NCBI GenBank assembly: GCA_003281125.1
Contig: QCCW01000007.1
Coordinates: 1 to 41,148, forward strand
DNA: 41,148 nucleotides
Reading direction: 5' to 3'
From: Prochlorococcus sp. AG-347-N23
GTDB taxonomy: Bacteria > Cyanobacteriota > Cyanobacteriia > PCC-6307 > Cyanobiaceae
This document shows, piece after piece, positions 1,385-14,270 of this stretch; within the stretch, counting starts at the first letter, position 1; each line of letters begins with the position of its first letter. Below the pieces are notes generated by a model. It searched no databases. It had not been told where the DNA came from and was given only the letters and a program-made list of their open reading frames with translations. A program made the position numbers and the translations under genes.

Positions 1385-2750
1385 TAGTTTACTTAGAGCA
1401 CCTAACCAGAGTATTGAAGAAACTGGTTACGCTTGGTATGTAGGTAACGCCAGACTAATTAATCTGTCTGGCCGTTTACTTGGTGCTCACATTGCACATA
1501 CTGGACTTATAGTTTTCTGGGCTGGTGCAATGATGTTATTCGAAGTAAGTCATTTCACATTCGATAAACCAATGTGGGAACAAGGCTTAATTTGTATGCC
1601 ACACGTTGCAATGTTTGGATTTGGAATAGGTCCTGGTGGTGAAGTTACTGATGTATACCCATTCTTTGTTGCTGGTGTTATGCACTTAATTTCGTCTGCA
1701 GTTTTAGGGTTTGGTGGTATCTACCATTCCTTAGCCGGTCCTGAAAAACTTGAGCAAGATTTTCCTTTCTTTTCAACAGATTGGAGAGATAAGAATCAAA
1801 TGACTAACATTTTGGGTTATCACCTAATTGTTTTAGGAGTTGGTGCATTATTTTTCGTTTTTGATTGGATGTTCATTGGAGGTGCTTATGACACATGGGC
1901 TCCTGGTGGTGGAGAAGTTAGGTTAGTTAGTCCTACGTTAGATCCTAGAGTAATACTTGGTTACTTATTCAGATCTCCATGGGGTGGCGCTGGTTCAATA
2001 ATTGGTGTTAATTCCATAGAGGATATTGTTGGTGGTCACGTATATGTTGGAATTACTGCAATAATTGGTGGTCTTTTCCATATTTTCACCAAACCTTTTG
2101 GATGGGCTAGAAGAGCATTCATCTGGAACGGTGAAGGATTATTAAGTTATGCTTTAGGTGGTATTTGTGTAGCAAGTTTTATTGCTTCAACATTCATCTG
2201 GTTTAACAATACTGCTTACCCTTCTGAGTTTTATGGTCCAACAAATGCTGAAGCTTCACAGGCTCAAAGCTTTACTTTCCTTGTGAGAGATCAAAGAATT
2301 GGAGCTAACGTAGGTTCAACAATGGGACCAACAGGTCTAGGTAAGTATCTCATGAGATCTCCTACTGGTGAAATTATATTTGGTGGTGAAACTATGAGAT
2401 TTTGGGATTTCAGAGGCCCATGGTTAGAGCCTTTAAGAGGACCTAACGGATTGAGCCTTGAGAAAATCCAAAATGATATTCAGCCTTGGCAAGTAAGAAG
2501 AGCTGCTGAATATATGACTCATGCTCCTAACGCTTCTATCAACTCTGTTGGTGGAATCATTACAGAGCCTAATGCTGTTAACTTTGTTAATTTAAGACAA
2601 TGGTTAGCTGCAGCTCAATTTTTCCTAGGATGGTTTACATTCATCGGTCACCTTTGGCATGCTGGACGTGCTAGAGCAGCCGCTGCTGGTTTCGAAAAAG
2701 GAATCGACAGAAAGAGTGAACCAGCTCTAGAAATGCCTGATCTAGATTAA
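1368..2750 (+). CDS. psbC: Photosystem II core antenna protein CP43
   Basis: CP43 is the six-helix chlorophyll-a inner antenna of photosystem II and supplies ligands to the oxygen-evolving manganese cluster. From the GTG at 1368 the product is 460 residues. The motif [14 protein letters not shown] places the manganese-cluster residues Glu341 and Arg344 (Glu354 and Arg357 in standard numbering) in the large lumenal loop between helices 5 and 6, and the regularly spaced histidines expected of chlorophyll ligands are present. It overlaps psbD by 17 bases and follows a strong internal ribosome-binding site. A strong hairpin terminator follows the stop. Confidence 0.98.
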
Positions 2751-2764
2751 TTTCTATCTCAACT

Positions 2765-2799
2765 AAAAAGGCCCTATCTTTAGATAGGGTTTTTTTTTG
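2765..2799 (+). terminator. Rho-independent terminator after psbDC, probably bidirectional
   Basis: CCCTATCT and AGATAGGG (2772-2779 and 2782-2789) form an 8-base inverted repeat, or a 7-bp stem with a 4-base loop. An A-run precedes it and a run of nine T follows. It lies between the converging psbC and maf-like genes, so it can stop transcription from both sides. Confidence 0.9.
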
Positions 2800-2809
2800 C
2801 TCAATTTTA

Positions 2810-3488: not shown

Positions 3489-5018
3489 ATGGATTTAGAA
3501 GCGAAACTAAATGAAAGAAAGAAACCAATAATGGTCCTAGGTACTTCCAGTGGAGCAGGAAAATCATTAACAGTTACAGCTATTTGCAGGATTCTTAAAA
3601 ATTCAGAGGAAGAACCAATACCTTTTAAAGGACAAAATATGAGTAACAACGCTTGGGTTGATTGGGAAGGTGGAGAGATGGCATATTCACAAGCCCTGCA
3701 AGCTTTTGCATGCGGTATAAATCCTTCTTCAGAGATGAACCCCATTTTATTAAAACCACAAGGCAATTCAGTAAGCGAAGTTATTCACCTTGGCAAAAGT
3801 ATTGGGACAACAACCGCAAAAAATTACTATAAAGATTGGTTTATTCCAGGATGGAAAGTAATTAAAAAAAGCTTAGAGTATATCTATAAACAAAATCCAA
3901 ATTGTCGTTTAATTATCGAAGGAGCTGGTAGTCCAGTAGAAATGAATTTAATACATAGAGATCTTACTAATTTAAGAATTGCAAAGTATTTAAAGGCAAA
4001 TTGCATTTTAGTTACTGATATAGAAAGGGGAGGCGTATTTGCTCAGATAATTGGAACACTTGAATTGATGCAACCTGAAGAAAAAAAACTTATAAAGGGA
4101 ATTATCATAAATAGATTCAGAGGAGACCTTTCATTATTTGAAGATGGGAAAAAATGGATAGAAGAAAAAACTCAAATACCTGTTATTGGAATTATTCCAT
4201 GGCTAAATGATTCATTCCCCCCAGAAGATTCTTTAGATTTATTAGAAAAGAAATCTCGTTTCAAGGACGCTGAAATCAAAGTGGGAATTATAAAATTGCC
4301 ATCAATAAGTAACTTCTCAGATTTTGATCCATTAGAAAATGAAGAAACAATATTAGTTGAATGGATTAGGGAATCGCACAACTTGAAGAATTATGACTTT
4401 ATTATTCTTCCTGGCAGTAAACAGACTATTAAAGATCAAATCTTTCTTGAAAAGACTGGTTTATCGCTTGCTTTGAGGGATTATTCAAATAATAAGGGGA
4501 ATATCGTTGGGATCTGTGGAGGGTTACAAATGTTAGGCACATTTCTTGAAGATCCCTTTCTAAAAGAGGGCTCGAAAAATTTCTCAGAACAAAAAATTAG
4601 AGGTATTGGATTACTGCCATTAAAAACTACTTTCTTTGAGAAAAAATTAACCCGCCAAATTAGTTCCGAATCTTTATGGCCATGCCAATCCAAAATAAAT
4701 GGTTTTGAAATACATAATGGCCATACGGAATTAGATAATACTCAAAGCTCGTTAAAGATTAAACCCATCTTCAAAGACTTAAATTTAGGTTGGTACAAAG
4801 AAAATAAAGAAGGTGGAACTATTGCAGGTACATACATCCATGGAATCTTTGAAAATGATATTTGGAGAGATCAATATATAAATTTAATAAGAAAGAGAAA
4901 AAAATTGCCAGCATTAAAGAAAAGAACAAGCTCTTATAAAGTTAAGAGAGAATCAATAATTGAAAATCTTGCTAATGAATTTAATAAGCATTTAAATCTC
5001 TCATCATTATTAAAATGA
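3489..5018 (+). CDS. cobQ: Cobyric acid synthase CobQ
   Basis: CobQ amidates four carboxyl side chains of adenosylcobyrinic a,c-diamide, using glutamine and ATP, in cobalamin (pseudocobalamin) synthesis. The 509-residue protein has an N-terminal ATP-binding domain with the P-loop-like GTSSGAGKS (about 18-26) and the FKGQNMSNNAWV segment. A C-terminal class I glutamine amidotransferase domain has its nucleophile Cys343 in GICGGLQMLG and catalytic His451 in YIHGIF. Length and motifs are complete, so it should be active. Its stop overlaps the next gene by four bases (ATGA). Confidence 0.97.
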   Translation: MDLEAKLNERKKPIMVLGTSSGAGKSLTVTAICRILKNSEEEPIPFKGQNMSNNAWVDWEGGEMAYSQALQAFACGINPSSEMNPILLKPQGNSVSEVIHLGKSIGTTTAKNYYKDWFIPGWKVIKKSLEYIYKQNPNCRLIIEGAGSPVEMNLIHRDLTNLRIAKYLKANCILVTDIERGGVFAQIIGTLELMQPEEKKLIKGIIINRFRGDLSLFEDGKKWIEEKTQIPVIGIIPWLNDSFPPEDSLDLLEKKSRFKDAEIKVGIIKLPSISNFSDFDPLENEETILVEWIRESHNLKNYDFIILPGSKQTIKDQIFLEKTGLSLALRDYSNNKGNIVGICGGLQMLGTFLEDPFLKEGSKNFSEQKIRGIGLLPLKTTFFEKKLTRQISSESLWPCQSKINGFEIHNGHTELDNTQSSLKIKPIFKDLNLGWYKENKEGGTIAGTYIHGIFENDIWRDQYINLIRKRKKLPALKKRTSSYKVKRESIIENLANEFNKHLNLSSLLK

Positions 5019-5266
5019 AACACTCAAGAATTAAAATTATTTGGCCTAATAATATTGAAACATATGTTTCTGAAGGACAAGATTGGTTCTCTAATGCAGA
5101 AAAAGCAGGTTTAGAAATTCCCACTGGCTGTCTAACAGGAAGTTGTGGAGCTTGCGAAATAGATGTTAATGGAGAAACTATAAGAGCTTGCATAAGCAAT
5201 ATTAAAAGTAAAAAAAAATCTCCATTAAAAGTTTCTTTTACCACAGACCCGTTTTGGGAAGACTAA
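5015..5266 (+). CDS. Small 2Fe-2S ferredoxin-like protein
   Basis: An 83-residue soluble protein with four cysteines, Cys39, Cys44, Cys47 and Cys59, in GCLTGSCGACEIDVNGETIRAC. The C-x4-C-x2-C core is that of beta-grasp [2Fe-2S] domains. The fourth cysteine comes after only 11 residues, where plant-type photosynthetic ferredoxins have nearly 30; a short spacing like this is typical of the [2Fe-2S] domain in xanthine dehydrogenase-type enzymes. It probably carries electrons, but its partner is unknown. Its ATG overlaps the cobQ stop (ATGA), implying translational coupling. It is not the main photosynthetic ferredoxin. Confidence 0.85.
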   Translation: MKHSRIKIIWPNNIETYVSEGQDWFSNAEKAGLEIPTGCLTGSCGACEIDVNGETIRACISNIKSKKKSPLKVSFTTDPFWED

Positions 5267-5315
5267 ATTAACTCTCTTTTTAAGATAAAAATTTTAATAA
5301 ATTCTAATAAACTTT

Positions 5316-5408
5316 TGCTATTTGTAGGAAACATTTGGAACGATGTAGGAATATCATCAAAATAGTATTATGCAAAAAAAAGACCTCTATTAAAAGAGGT
5401 CTTAATTT
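5316..5408 (+). ncRNA. Candidate small RNA, Yfr2-like (plus strand)
   Basis: Between the ferredoxin-like gene and tRNA-Ser, a -10-like TAATAA (5305-5310) precedes a segment of about 92 bases ending at the hairpin 5380-5403. TTTTGC (5313-5318) can pair with GCAAAA (5372-5377), and TATTT (5319-5323) with AAATA (5360-5364). These close a large loop holding AGGAAACA (5326-5333). GGAAACA in a loop ahead of a terminator hairpin is the mark of the cyanobacterial Yfr2 RNA family as I know it. The hairpin is followed by AATTTG rather than a pure T-run, so termination on this strand may be leaky. Ends are estimates. Confidence 0.4.
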
Positions 5409-5461
5409 GTTTTATTAATAGAGTGTTTCCTTGTTACCACCCTTTTAGTAAAACATCTCCT
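5374..5461 (-). ncRNA. Candidate small RNA of the Yfr2 family (minus strand)
   Basis: Read on the minus strand, a TATTAT -10-like box (5473-5468) is followed about seven bases later by a likely 5' end near 5461. The RNA begins with a GUGUGAAGGAG-like stretch. Next come TGTTTTA (5455-5449) and TAAAACA (5414-5408), a perfect 7-bp pairing closing a loop that contains ACAAGGAAACA (GGAAACA at 5430-5424). Last is a 9-bp hairpin AAGACCTCT/AGAGGTCTT (5403-5380) with a T-run. Size near 88 bases, stem-loop plus terminator, and the unpaired GGAAACA all fit the Yfr2 family, known as abundant regulatory RNAs in marine cyanobacteria. An 11-codon frame inside has no obvious coding character. Confidence 0.55.
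5380..5403. terminator. Two-way hairpin terminator shared by convergent small RNAs
   Basis: AAGACCTCT (5380-5388) and AGAGGTCTT (5395-5403) form a perfect 9-bp stem with a 6-base loop. An A-run on the left (5374-5379) gives the minus-strand RNA a T-tail; the right side is AATTTG, weaker for the plus strand. It is the only clear terminator between the ferredoxin-like gene and tRNA-Ser. Confidence 0.8.
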
Positions 5462-5636
5462 TCACACATAATAAAGGTATCCCATAGATTTCTTTTTTGT
5501 GGAATGGGTTAATGGAATGTTACTAAACCATCACGTGTACCACTTGGCTATTGCAGGATCTTTGCAATTAAGAAACAATCTAACTCAGAGAAAGAAAGTT
5601 GACTTATCAGAAAACTTTTGAACTTAACAAAAAACC

Positions 5637-5722
5637 GGAGAGGGTGGGATTCGAACCCACGAATAGTTTTACCTATTAAACGATTTCGAGTCGTTCGCTT
5701 TCAACCACTCAGCCACCTCTCC
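5637..5722 (-). tRNA. trnS: tRNA-Ser, anticodon CGA
   Basis: An 86-base type II tRNA read on the minus strand. The acceptor arms GGAGAGG and CCTCTCC pair. The D arm contains GCTGAGTGGTTGAAAGC, the anticodon stem AACGA/TCGTT encloses CTCGAAA (anticodon CGA), a long variable arm is present as expected for serine, and the T arm is GTGGGTTCGAATCCCAC. The 3' CCA is not encoded. It decodes UCG, a rare codon in such an AT-rich genome. Confidence 0.97.
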
Positions 5723-5783
5723 ACCTTCTTATATTTATGCACATAAATAAATTTAAATGTAATTTATCAAATTATCTTAATTT

Positions 5784-13136: not shown

Positions 13137-13163
13137 TAATTTTTTAAAAACGTGAAATAATTC

Positions 13164-13199
13164 TACAAAAAAAACCCCCCCTGTTAGAGGAGAGGTTTT
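13164..13199 (-). terminator. Terminator after pcb
   Basis: On the minus strand, AAAAACCTCTCC and GGGGGGGTTTTT pair over about 12 positions (two G-U pairs) around a 7-base loop and run into a T-tract. It lies right after the pcb stop, and the A/T flanks make it potentially active in both directions. Confidence 0.8.
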
Positions 13200-13211
13200 T
13201 ATTAAATTAAA

Positions 13212-14270
13212 TTAGTTTTGAGTAATTTTTGTATTTTCAATATTGTCAAAAGCTTGACCAATTTTCTTAAAGTCAAATCCCATTGCTCTTAGTGCGTGCC
13301 AAAGATGACCTTGTAAGAAAAAGAAACCCAAATAAAAATGAGTATTAGCAAGCCAAGCTCTTGAGCTATATGCTCCTGAACCTAAATCTACTGTATCAGT
13401 AAAATAAGGTGCAAATTCAAATTGAAGCTTTAAGGGTTCTCCATATAGATCAACTGGATATATGGTTGTATTTGAAGCACACCAAAAAGCAGCAACAAAA
13501 GCCATATAAGAAACACCAACCACTGAGTATGACAAAATTGCCTCAGCACCAAGTAACCCTTTTCCTTTAAATTCTGTATATTCTCCAAATTGTTTAGTAC
13601 AAATATGGAAAACTCCACCAATGATGGTTAAGAATGCCACAAAAGCATGACCTCCCATAATGTCTTCAAGACTATCTATTTTTAAAAAGTCAAATTGATG
13701 ATTCCAGATAGCGGCAATATCTAAATTGTAAATAACTTGTCTTGTAGATCCTATTGCTGGATCGTAAATTCCATGAATCCGAGCCCATTCCACGAACATT
13801 ATTGCTCCTAGGCCAAGAAAAATTAGATGGTGTCCAAGAATAAAAGTTAATTTATCAGGATCATCCCATTCAAAATCAAAACTTTTTGGTTTACTACCCT
13901 CTGGATAATCACCAAGATCACCAGCAAATTTGTTGGAATGTAATAATCCTCCAGCACCCAATACTGCTGAGAAAATTAAATGTAATGTGCAAATTACAAC
14001 AATTCCATATGGCTCTGTAATAACTCCATTTTCAATTCCACCTATTCCAATACCCGCTAGGTGAGGAAGAACAATTGCTTTTTGGGCACCCATTGGAATG
14101 CTGGCGTCGTAACGAGCTAGTTCAAACAATCCAAAAGCTCCAGCCCAAAACATCATTAATCCTGCATGAGCAGCATGGGCAGCAATGAATTTACCTGAAC
14201 GACCTACAACACCAGAATTTCCTGCGTACCAGTCATAGCTGACATCAGATTTTCCGTAAGTTTGTAACAC
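13212..14270 (-). CDS. pcb: Chlorophyll-binding antenna protein, Pcb/IsiA family
   Basis: A 352-residue six-helix thylakoid protein related to CP43 but lacking its large lumenal loop, as in Pcb and IsiA. Recognisable chlorophyll-binding motifs include RSGKFIAAHAAHAGLMMFWAGA (about 24-45), ILGHHLIFLGLGA, MGGHAFVAFLTIIGGVFHI and the C-terminal HLWHALRAMGFDF. Pcb proteins bind divinyl chlorophylls a and b and ring photosystem I or II. This copy lies 143 bases downstream of the flavodoxin gene on the same strand, as in an iron-stress unit, so it is probably an iron-stress antenna rather than the constitutive PcbA; the copy number in the genome cannot be seen here. Confidence 0.93.
   Translation of the reverse strand: MLQTYGKSDVSYDWYAGNSGVVGRSGKFIAAHAAHAGLMMFWAGAFGLFELARYDASIPMGAQKAIVLPHLAGIGIGGIENGVITEPYGIVVICTLHLIFSAVLGAGGLLHSNKFAGDLGDYPEGSKPKSFDFEWDDPDKLTFILGHHLIFLGLGAIMFVEWARIHGIYDPAIGSTRQVIYNLDIAAIWNHQFDFLKIDSLEDIMGGHAFVAFLTIIGGVFHICTKQFGEYTEFKGKGLLGAEAILSYSVVGVSYMAFVAAFWCASNTTIYPVDLYGEPLKLQFEFAPYFTDTVDLGSGAYSSRAWLANTHFYLGFFFLQGHLWHALRAMGFDFKKIGQAFDNIENTKITQN

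Follow-up and report, generated by a model that had tools for sequence, protein, structure and literature searches.

Does the gene-free gap between a ferredoxin gene and a serine tRNA gene of Prochlorococcus sp. AG-347-N23 encode one small RNA or two? The gap lies within a stretch of 41,148 nucleotides (contig QCCW01000007.1, positions 1 to 41,148; called the window below) from a Prochlorococcus draft genome of 60 contigs that is 63% complete. The original prediction, placed at 5316-5461, proposed two convergent Yfr2-like RNAs that end at a common terminator and could regulate one another through base pairing between their 3' ends. The letters on which it was built are all in place: GGAAACA occurs on the minus strand (5430-5424), enclosed by TGTTTTA/TAAAACA, and on the plus strand (5327-5333), between TTTTGC (5313-5318) and GCAAAA (5372-5377), and a single 9-bp hairpin is predicted as a terminator on either strand, with a weaker tail on the plus strand. 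Taken as a whole, however, the data very strongly favour a single Yfr2 RNA, on the minus strand and with its own promoter, the hairpin probably also ending the ferredoxin message and the plus-strand GGAAACA being a chance match. The features of the locus are collected in Table 1.

Table 1. Features in and around the gene-free gap (positions counted from the first nucleotide of the window)
Feature	Position	Strand	Basis or remark
cobQ-ferredoxin	3489-5266	+	Left neighbour of the gap
2Fe-2S ferredoxin-like protein, 83 aa	5015-5266	+	3' of cobQ; Pfam Fer2, E 4.4e-7; gene order in relatives
Gene-free gap	5267-5634		Bounded by cobQ-ferredoxin (+) and serine tRNA (-)
Spacer without genes; likely 3' UTR of the ferredoxin mRNA	5267-5379	+	Place of the claimed second RNA, unsupported
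Yfr2 small RNA, ~95-97 nt with terminator	5373-5469	-	5' end set by homology to mapped MED4 yfr2
9-bp hairpin	5380-5403	both	Strong Yfr2 terminator (T8 tail, -); weaker T-rich tail (+)
Conserved Yfr2 promoter block	5471-5544	-	Palindrome-like GTGGTACACGTGATGG, TTTAGTAACATTCCAT, CCAC-AAAAAAGAAAT; alignment of 29 Yfr2 upstream regions
Probable -10 box TACCTT	5479-5474	-	Within the conserved promoter block
Remnant, 3' half of Yfr10 small RNA	5549-5613	-	Conserved CTCCTCACACAC part and intact terminator stem lost
Serine tRNA	5635-5723	-	Right neighbour of the gap

The minus strand carries a genuine and ordinary Yfr2 copy. The full RF01701 model (Cyano-1, the Yfr2 family; curated gathering cut-off 41 bits) matches 5403-5471(-) with 51.8 bits, an E value of 2.7e-6 in a search of the whole window, and the lengths of Yfr2-5 from MED4 are given as 89-95 nt (PMC1242208). 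Both single-stranded hallmarks of the family, which were tested as a 5' GUGUG(U/A)AGGAG and a tandem GGAAACA loop, are present, as UGUGUGAAGGAG at the 5' end and as GUGGUAACAAGGAAACAC, with one substitution, in the loop. The fold of the 95-nt RNA is clearly more stable than those of shuffled sequences (z = -4.2). Among 20 aligned sequences, 92.6% of the cells of the stem are paired and 8 of the 16 pairs show changes on both sides, as high a result being obtained with none of 500 shuffles, and the loop is 98-99% identical among relatives. The position of the gene is also shared: in 81 loci of relatives (some places being counted twice), Yfr2 and the same ferredoxin gene are convergent, Yfr2 lying on the 3' side of that gene. 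The copy of the window is among the weaker ones (53-72 bits in relatives and 74.6 for the second copy of the genome), its first loop repeat being GGTAACA instead of GGAAACA and its stem containing a C-A mismatch. Its score, loop substitution and mismatch suggest that this Yfr2 could be decaying.

The original prediction drew the limits of the locus too narrowly, as the RNA gene with its conserved promoter reaches ~5544. The 75 bases upstream of Yfr2 in the window hold a block common to the other aligned Yfr2 copies. According to PMC6778093, yfr2 promoters contain a motif named CGRE1 that is bound by PMM1637, a regulator of the GntR type; the block of the window may correspond to this motif.

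The second half of the proposed pair fares differently. A convergent Yfr2-like RNA on the plus strand would be consistent with the GGAAACA and its 6-bp closing stem, with a hairpin that works on paper in both directions and with the retention of GGAAACA in one related locus (L006). However, the stem closes a loop of 53 nt, a similar one can be formed at 37% of random positions and it is not part of the predicted fold, while GGAAACA itself occurs once on the plus strand of the window, where ~2.7 occurrences are expected. Trimmed of the terminator, the plus-strand stretch is no more stably folded than shuffled sequences (z = -0.48). It has neither the single-stranded 5' GUGUGNAGGAG end nor the tandem GGAAACAAGGAAACA loop, in contrast to Yfr2, which has a long stem and a 12-nt loop with GGAAACA in tandem. 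When both strands were scanned with the Yfr2 model, as had been proposed as a check, only the minus strand responded; the plus-strand stretch gives no RF01701 match even at E values up to 5, and searches of it with other families, up to the same value, return only chance matches far below their cut-offs. Likewise, in an Rfam scan of 20 loci, Cyano-1 is found opposite to the ferredoxin strand and never on it. Comparison with relatives points the same way: where the stretch can be aligned, GGAAACA is present in 5 of 54 loci and the stem in only 1 of 55, which is the window itself. RNAalifold finds zero consensus pairs on the plus-strand stretch of relatives. As the original prediction had itself named the lack of a Yfr2 match on a strand and the loss of the GGAAACA loops in close relatives as findings against it, and both are observed on the plus strand, the second RNA therefore falls. 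Mutual control loses its footing as well: the 3' ends are complementary because any palindromic terminator must make them so, and this complementarity is therefore no evidence for regulation. No description of a convergent Yfr2 pair was found in the portions consulted of the open-licence literature on Yfr2 and terminators. Two Yfr2-like RNAs that control each other through a common terminator are therefore an extremely unlikely account of this locus.

Another reading is that the plus strand yields a small RNA unrelated to Yfr2, for example one released from the ferredoxin message at its 3' end, that touches Yfr2 solely through the hairpin. It draws on the position of the ferredoxin stop codon, 113 nt before the hairpin with no other terminator-like site found between the two, and on the last ~45 nt before the hairpin, which can be aligned in several lineages. 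This alignability reflects common descent and leaves some scope for a weak constraint. Against it, the stretch has no structure and shows no detectable constraint, and visual inspection of the alignment of relatives reveals no consistent -10 box. Among 28 relatives with the same layout, whose spacers are longer than that of the window, the plus-strand stretch has a mean pairwise identity of 0.73, compared with 0.83 at the third codon positions of ferredoxin and 0.98 in the Yfr2 loop; selection therefore holds the stretch no more than it holds mostly silent sites. A profile of the stretch preceding the hairpin finds its matches beside Yfr2 at all matched loci except one, and a profile built from one lineage group alone reaches the window weakly (E 3.2). 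At the exceptional locus (L152 of genome G006, 957-1030), the spacer stretch by the position of the hairpin is kept and Yfr2 is absent. A conserved plus-strand RNA of another kind was rejected on the basis of this weak profile reach, of a divergence faster than that of ferredoxin third positions and of the missing fold. An unrelated plus-strand RNA is thus very improbable, and it is just as improbable that ferredoxin expression and Yfr2 affect one another through an RNA that the ferredoxin message releases at its 3' end and that meets Yfr2 at the terminator. The stretch might also be viewed as the degraded terminal part of a gene for a small protein, as one related locus (L069) has an open frame of 60 codons that ends just before the hairpin and partial matches exist at this locus in other genomes. 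However, the frames of nearly all relatives are interrupted by stops or shifts, the third position of the ATG frame is not enriched in substitutions (115, 160 and 120 at the three positions), no Pfam match is obtained and no coding signal by codon position is seen on the plus-strand stretch across the group, which leaves a decayed gene hardly credible. A phage origin was rejected as well, no match being found in phage records. From these comparisons, the plus-strand GGAAACA appears to be a chance match in an unconstrained, fast-changing spacer.

With a single Yfr2 RNA as the preferred reading, the following model can be drawn. Yfr2 would be transcribed from the minus strand, from ~5469 to 5373, under the control of its own conserved promoter. 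By analogy with other Yfr2 RNAs, its single-stranded 5' end (GUGUGAAGGAG) most likely pairs with RNAs of the Yfr1/Yfr10 type, and its 12-nt loop (GUAACAAGGAAA in the window) most likely contacts target RNAs. In published work (PMC2518516, PMC6778093), Yfr2 is described as interacting with Yfr1 and Yfr10, which carry a CTCCTCACACAC motif that could pair almost completely with the Yfr2 5' end. Transcription of Yfr2 would end at the hairpin, the other strand of which probably terminates, less strongly, the convergent cobQ-ferredoxin message; this is the simplest account of a hairpin facing two genes. A flank made of the terminator T-run followed by (A)TGCAAA or GTGCAAA is found at Yfr2 copies located in several unrelated sites (such as L088, L098, L097 and 5371-5380 of the window), as if the gene had moved with a few flanking bases.

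At related loci, the real RNA partner is Yfr10, whose gene lies intact upstream on the same strand as Yfr2; of this gene, the window keeps a 3' remnant only. Yfr10 lies just upstream of Yfr2, in the same orientation, in 11 of the 18 related Yfr2 loci scanned. In the window, the corresponding segment reaches 18.7 bits with RF02362 (Yfr10) vs a cut-off of 43, and allowing up to 2 mismatches does not recover the CTCCTCACACAC motif anywhere in the window. Local alignments of the segment to the Yfr10 of relatives nevertheless beat all 500 shuffles for 5 of 6 relatives, and it is a remnant of Yfr10 rather than a member of the family. Compared with L006, ~240 nt adjoining the serine tRNA are missing in the window. 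An intact Yfr10-Yfr2 pair is present elsewhere in the same genome, on another contig (C35; 60.7 and 74.6 bits). Two other weak Yfr10-like matches in the window, at 13158-13229(-) (26.1 bits) and 2728-2808(+) (24.7 bits), are below the cut-off of 43 and probably due to chance.

Further away, an IsrR match of 156.8 bits is found at 1782-1965(-), antisense to a psbC-like gene (1341-2750). IsrR is the antisense RNA of isiA, a relative of psbC. Because of this relationship between the sense gene of IsrR and psbC, homology of the coding sequences, and not an RNA, probably accounts for the match.

Had the convergent pair been true, its two members would have been paralogous small RNAs with mutual regulation through their terminators, but the comparative evidence is against it. 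The locus instead adds one more copy to a known and widespread family of small RNAs, and a false second RNA is struck off. A small new point is local: the Yfr10 half of the usual Yfr10-Yfr2 pair is lost here and Yfr2 kept, the complete pair persisting elsewhere in the genome.

Among known systems, the closest is the set of Yfr2-Yfr5 RNAs of MED4 (RF01701). Like these, Yfr2 of the window has a single-stranded 5' GUGUGNAGGAG, a long stem, a 12-nt loop with a GGAAACA repeat, a terminator hairpin, a length of ~95 nt and a conserved upstream block. Unlike these, it lies 3' of and convergent to a ferredoxin gene, where none of the four MED4 coordinates falls, its first loop repeat is GGTAACA and its Yfr10 neighbour is truncated. 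The Yfr10-Yfr2 tandem (RF02362 and RF01701), described in MED4 (PMC2518516), is echoed by the Yfr10 3' remnant that the window keeps at the same place, but the Yfr10 motif was removed from the window by the ~240-nt loss next to the serine tRNA. The overlapping ncRNA pairs Yfr8/Yfr9 and Yfr6/Yfr14 of MED4 embody the same idea as the original prediction, i.e. small RNAs from opposite strands; according to PMC2518516, they were found by arrays and verified, whereas the second RNA of the window is without support.
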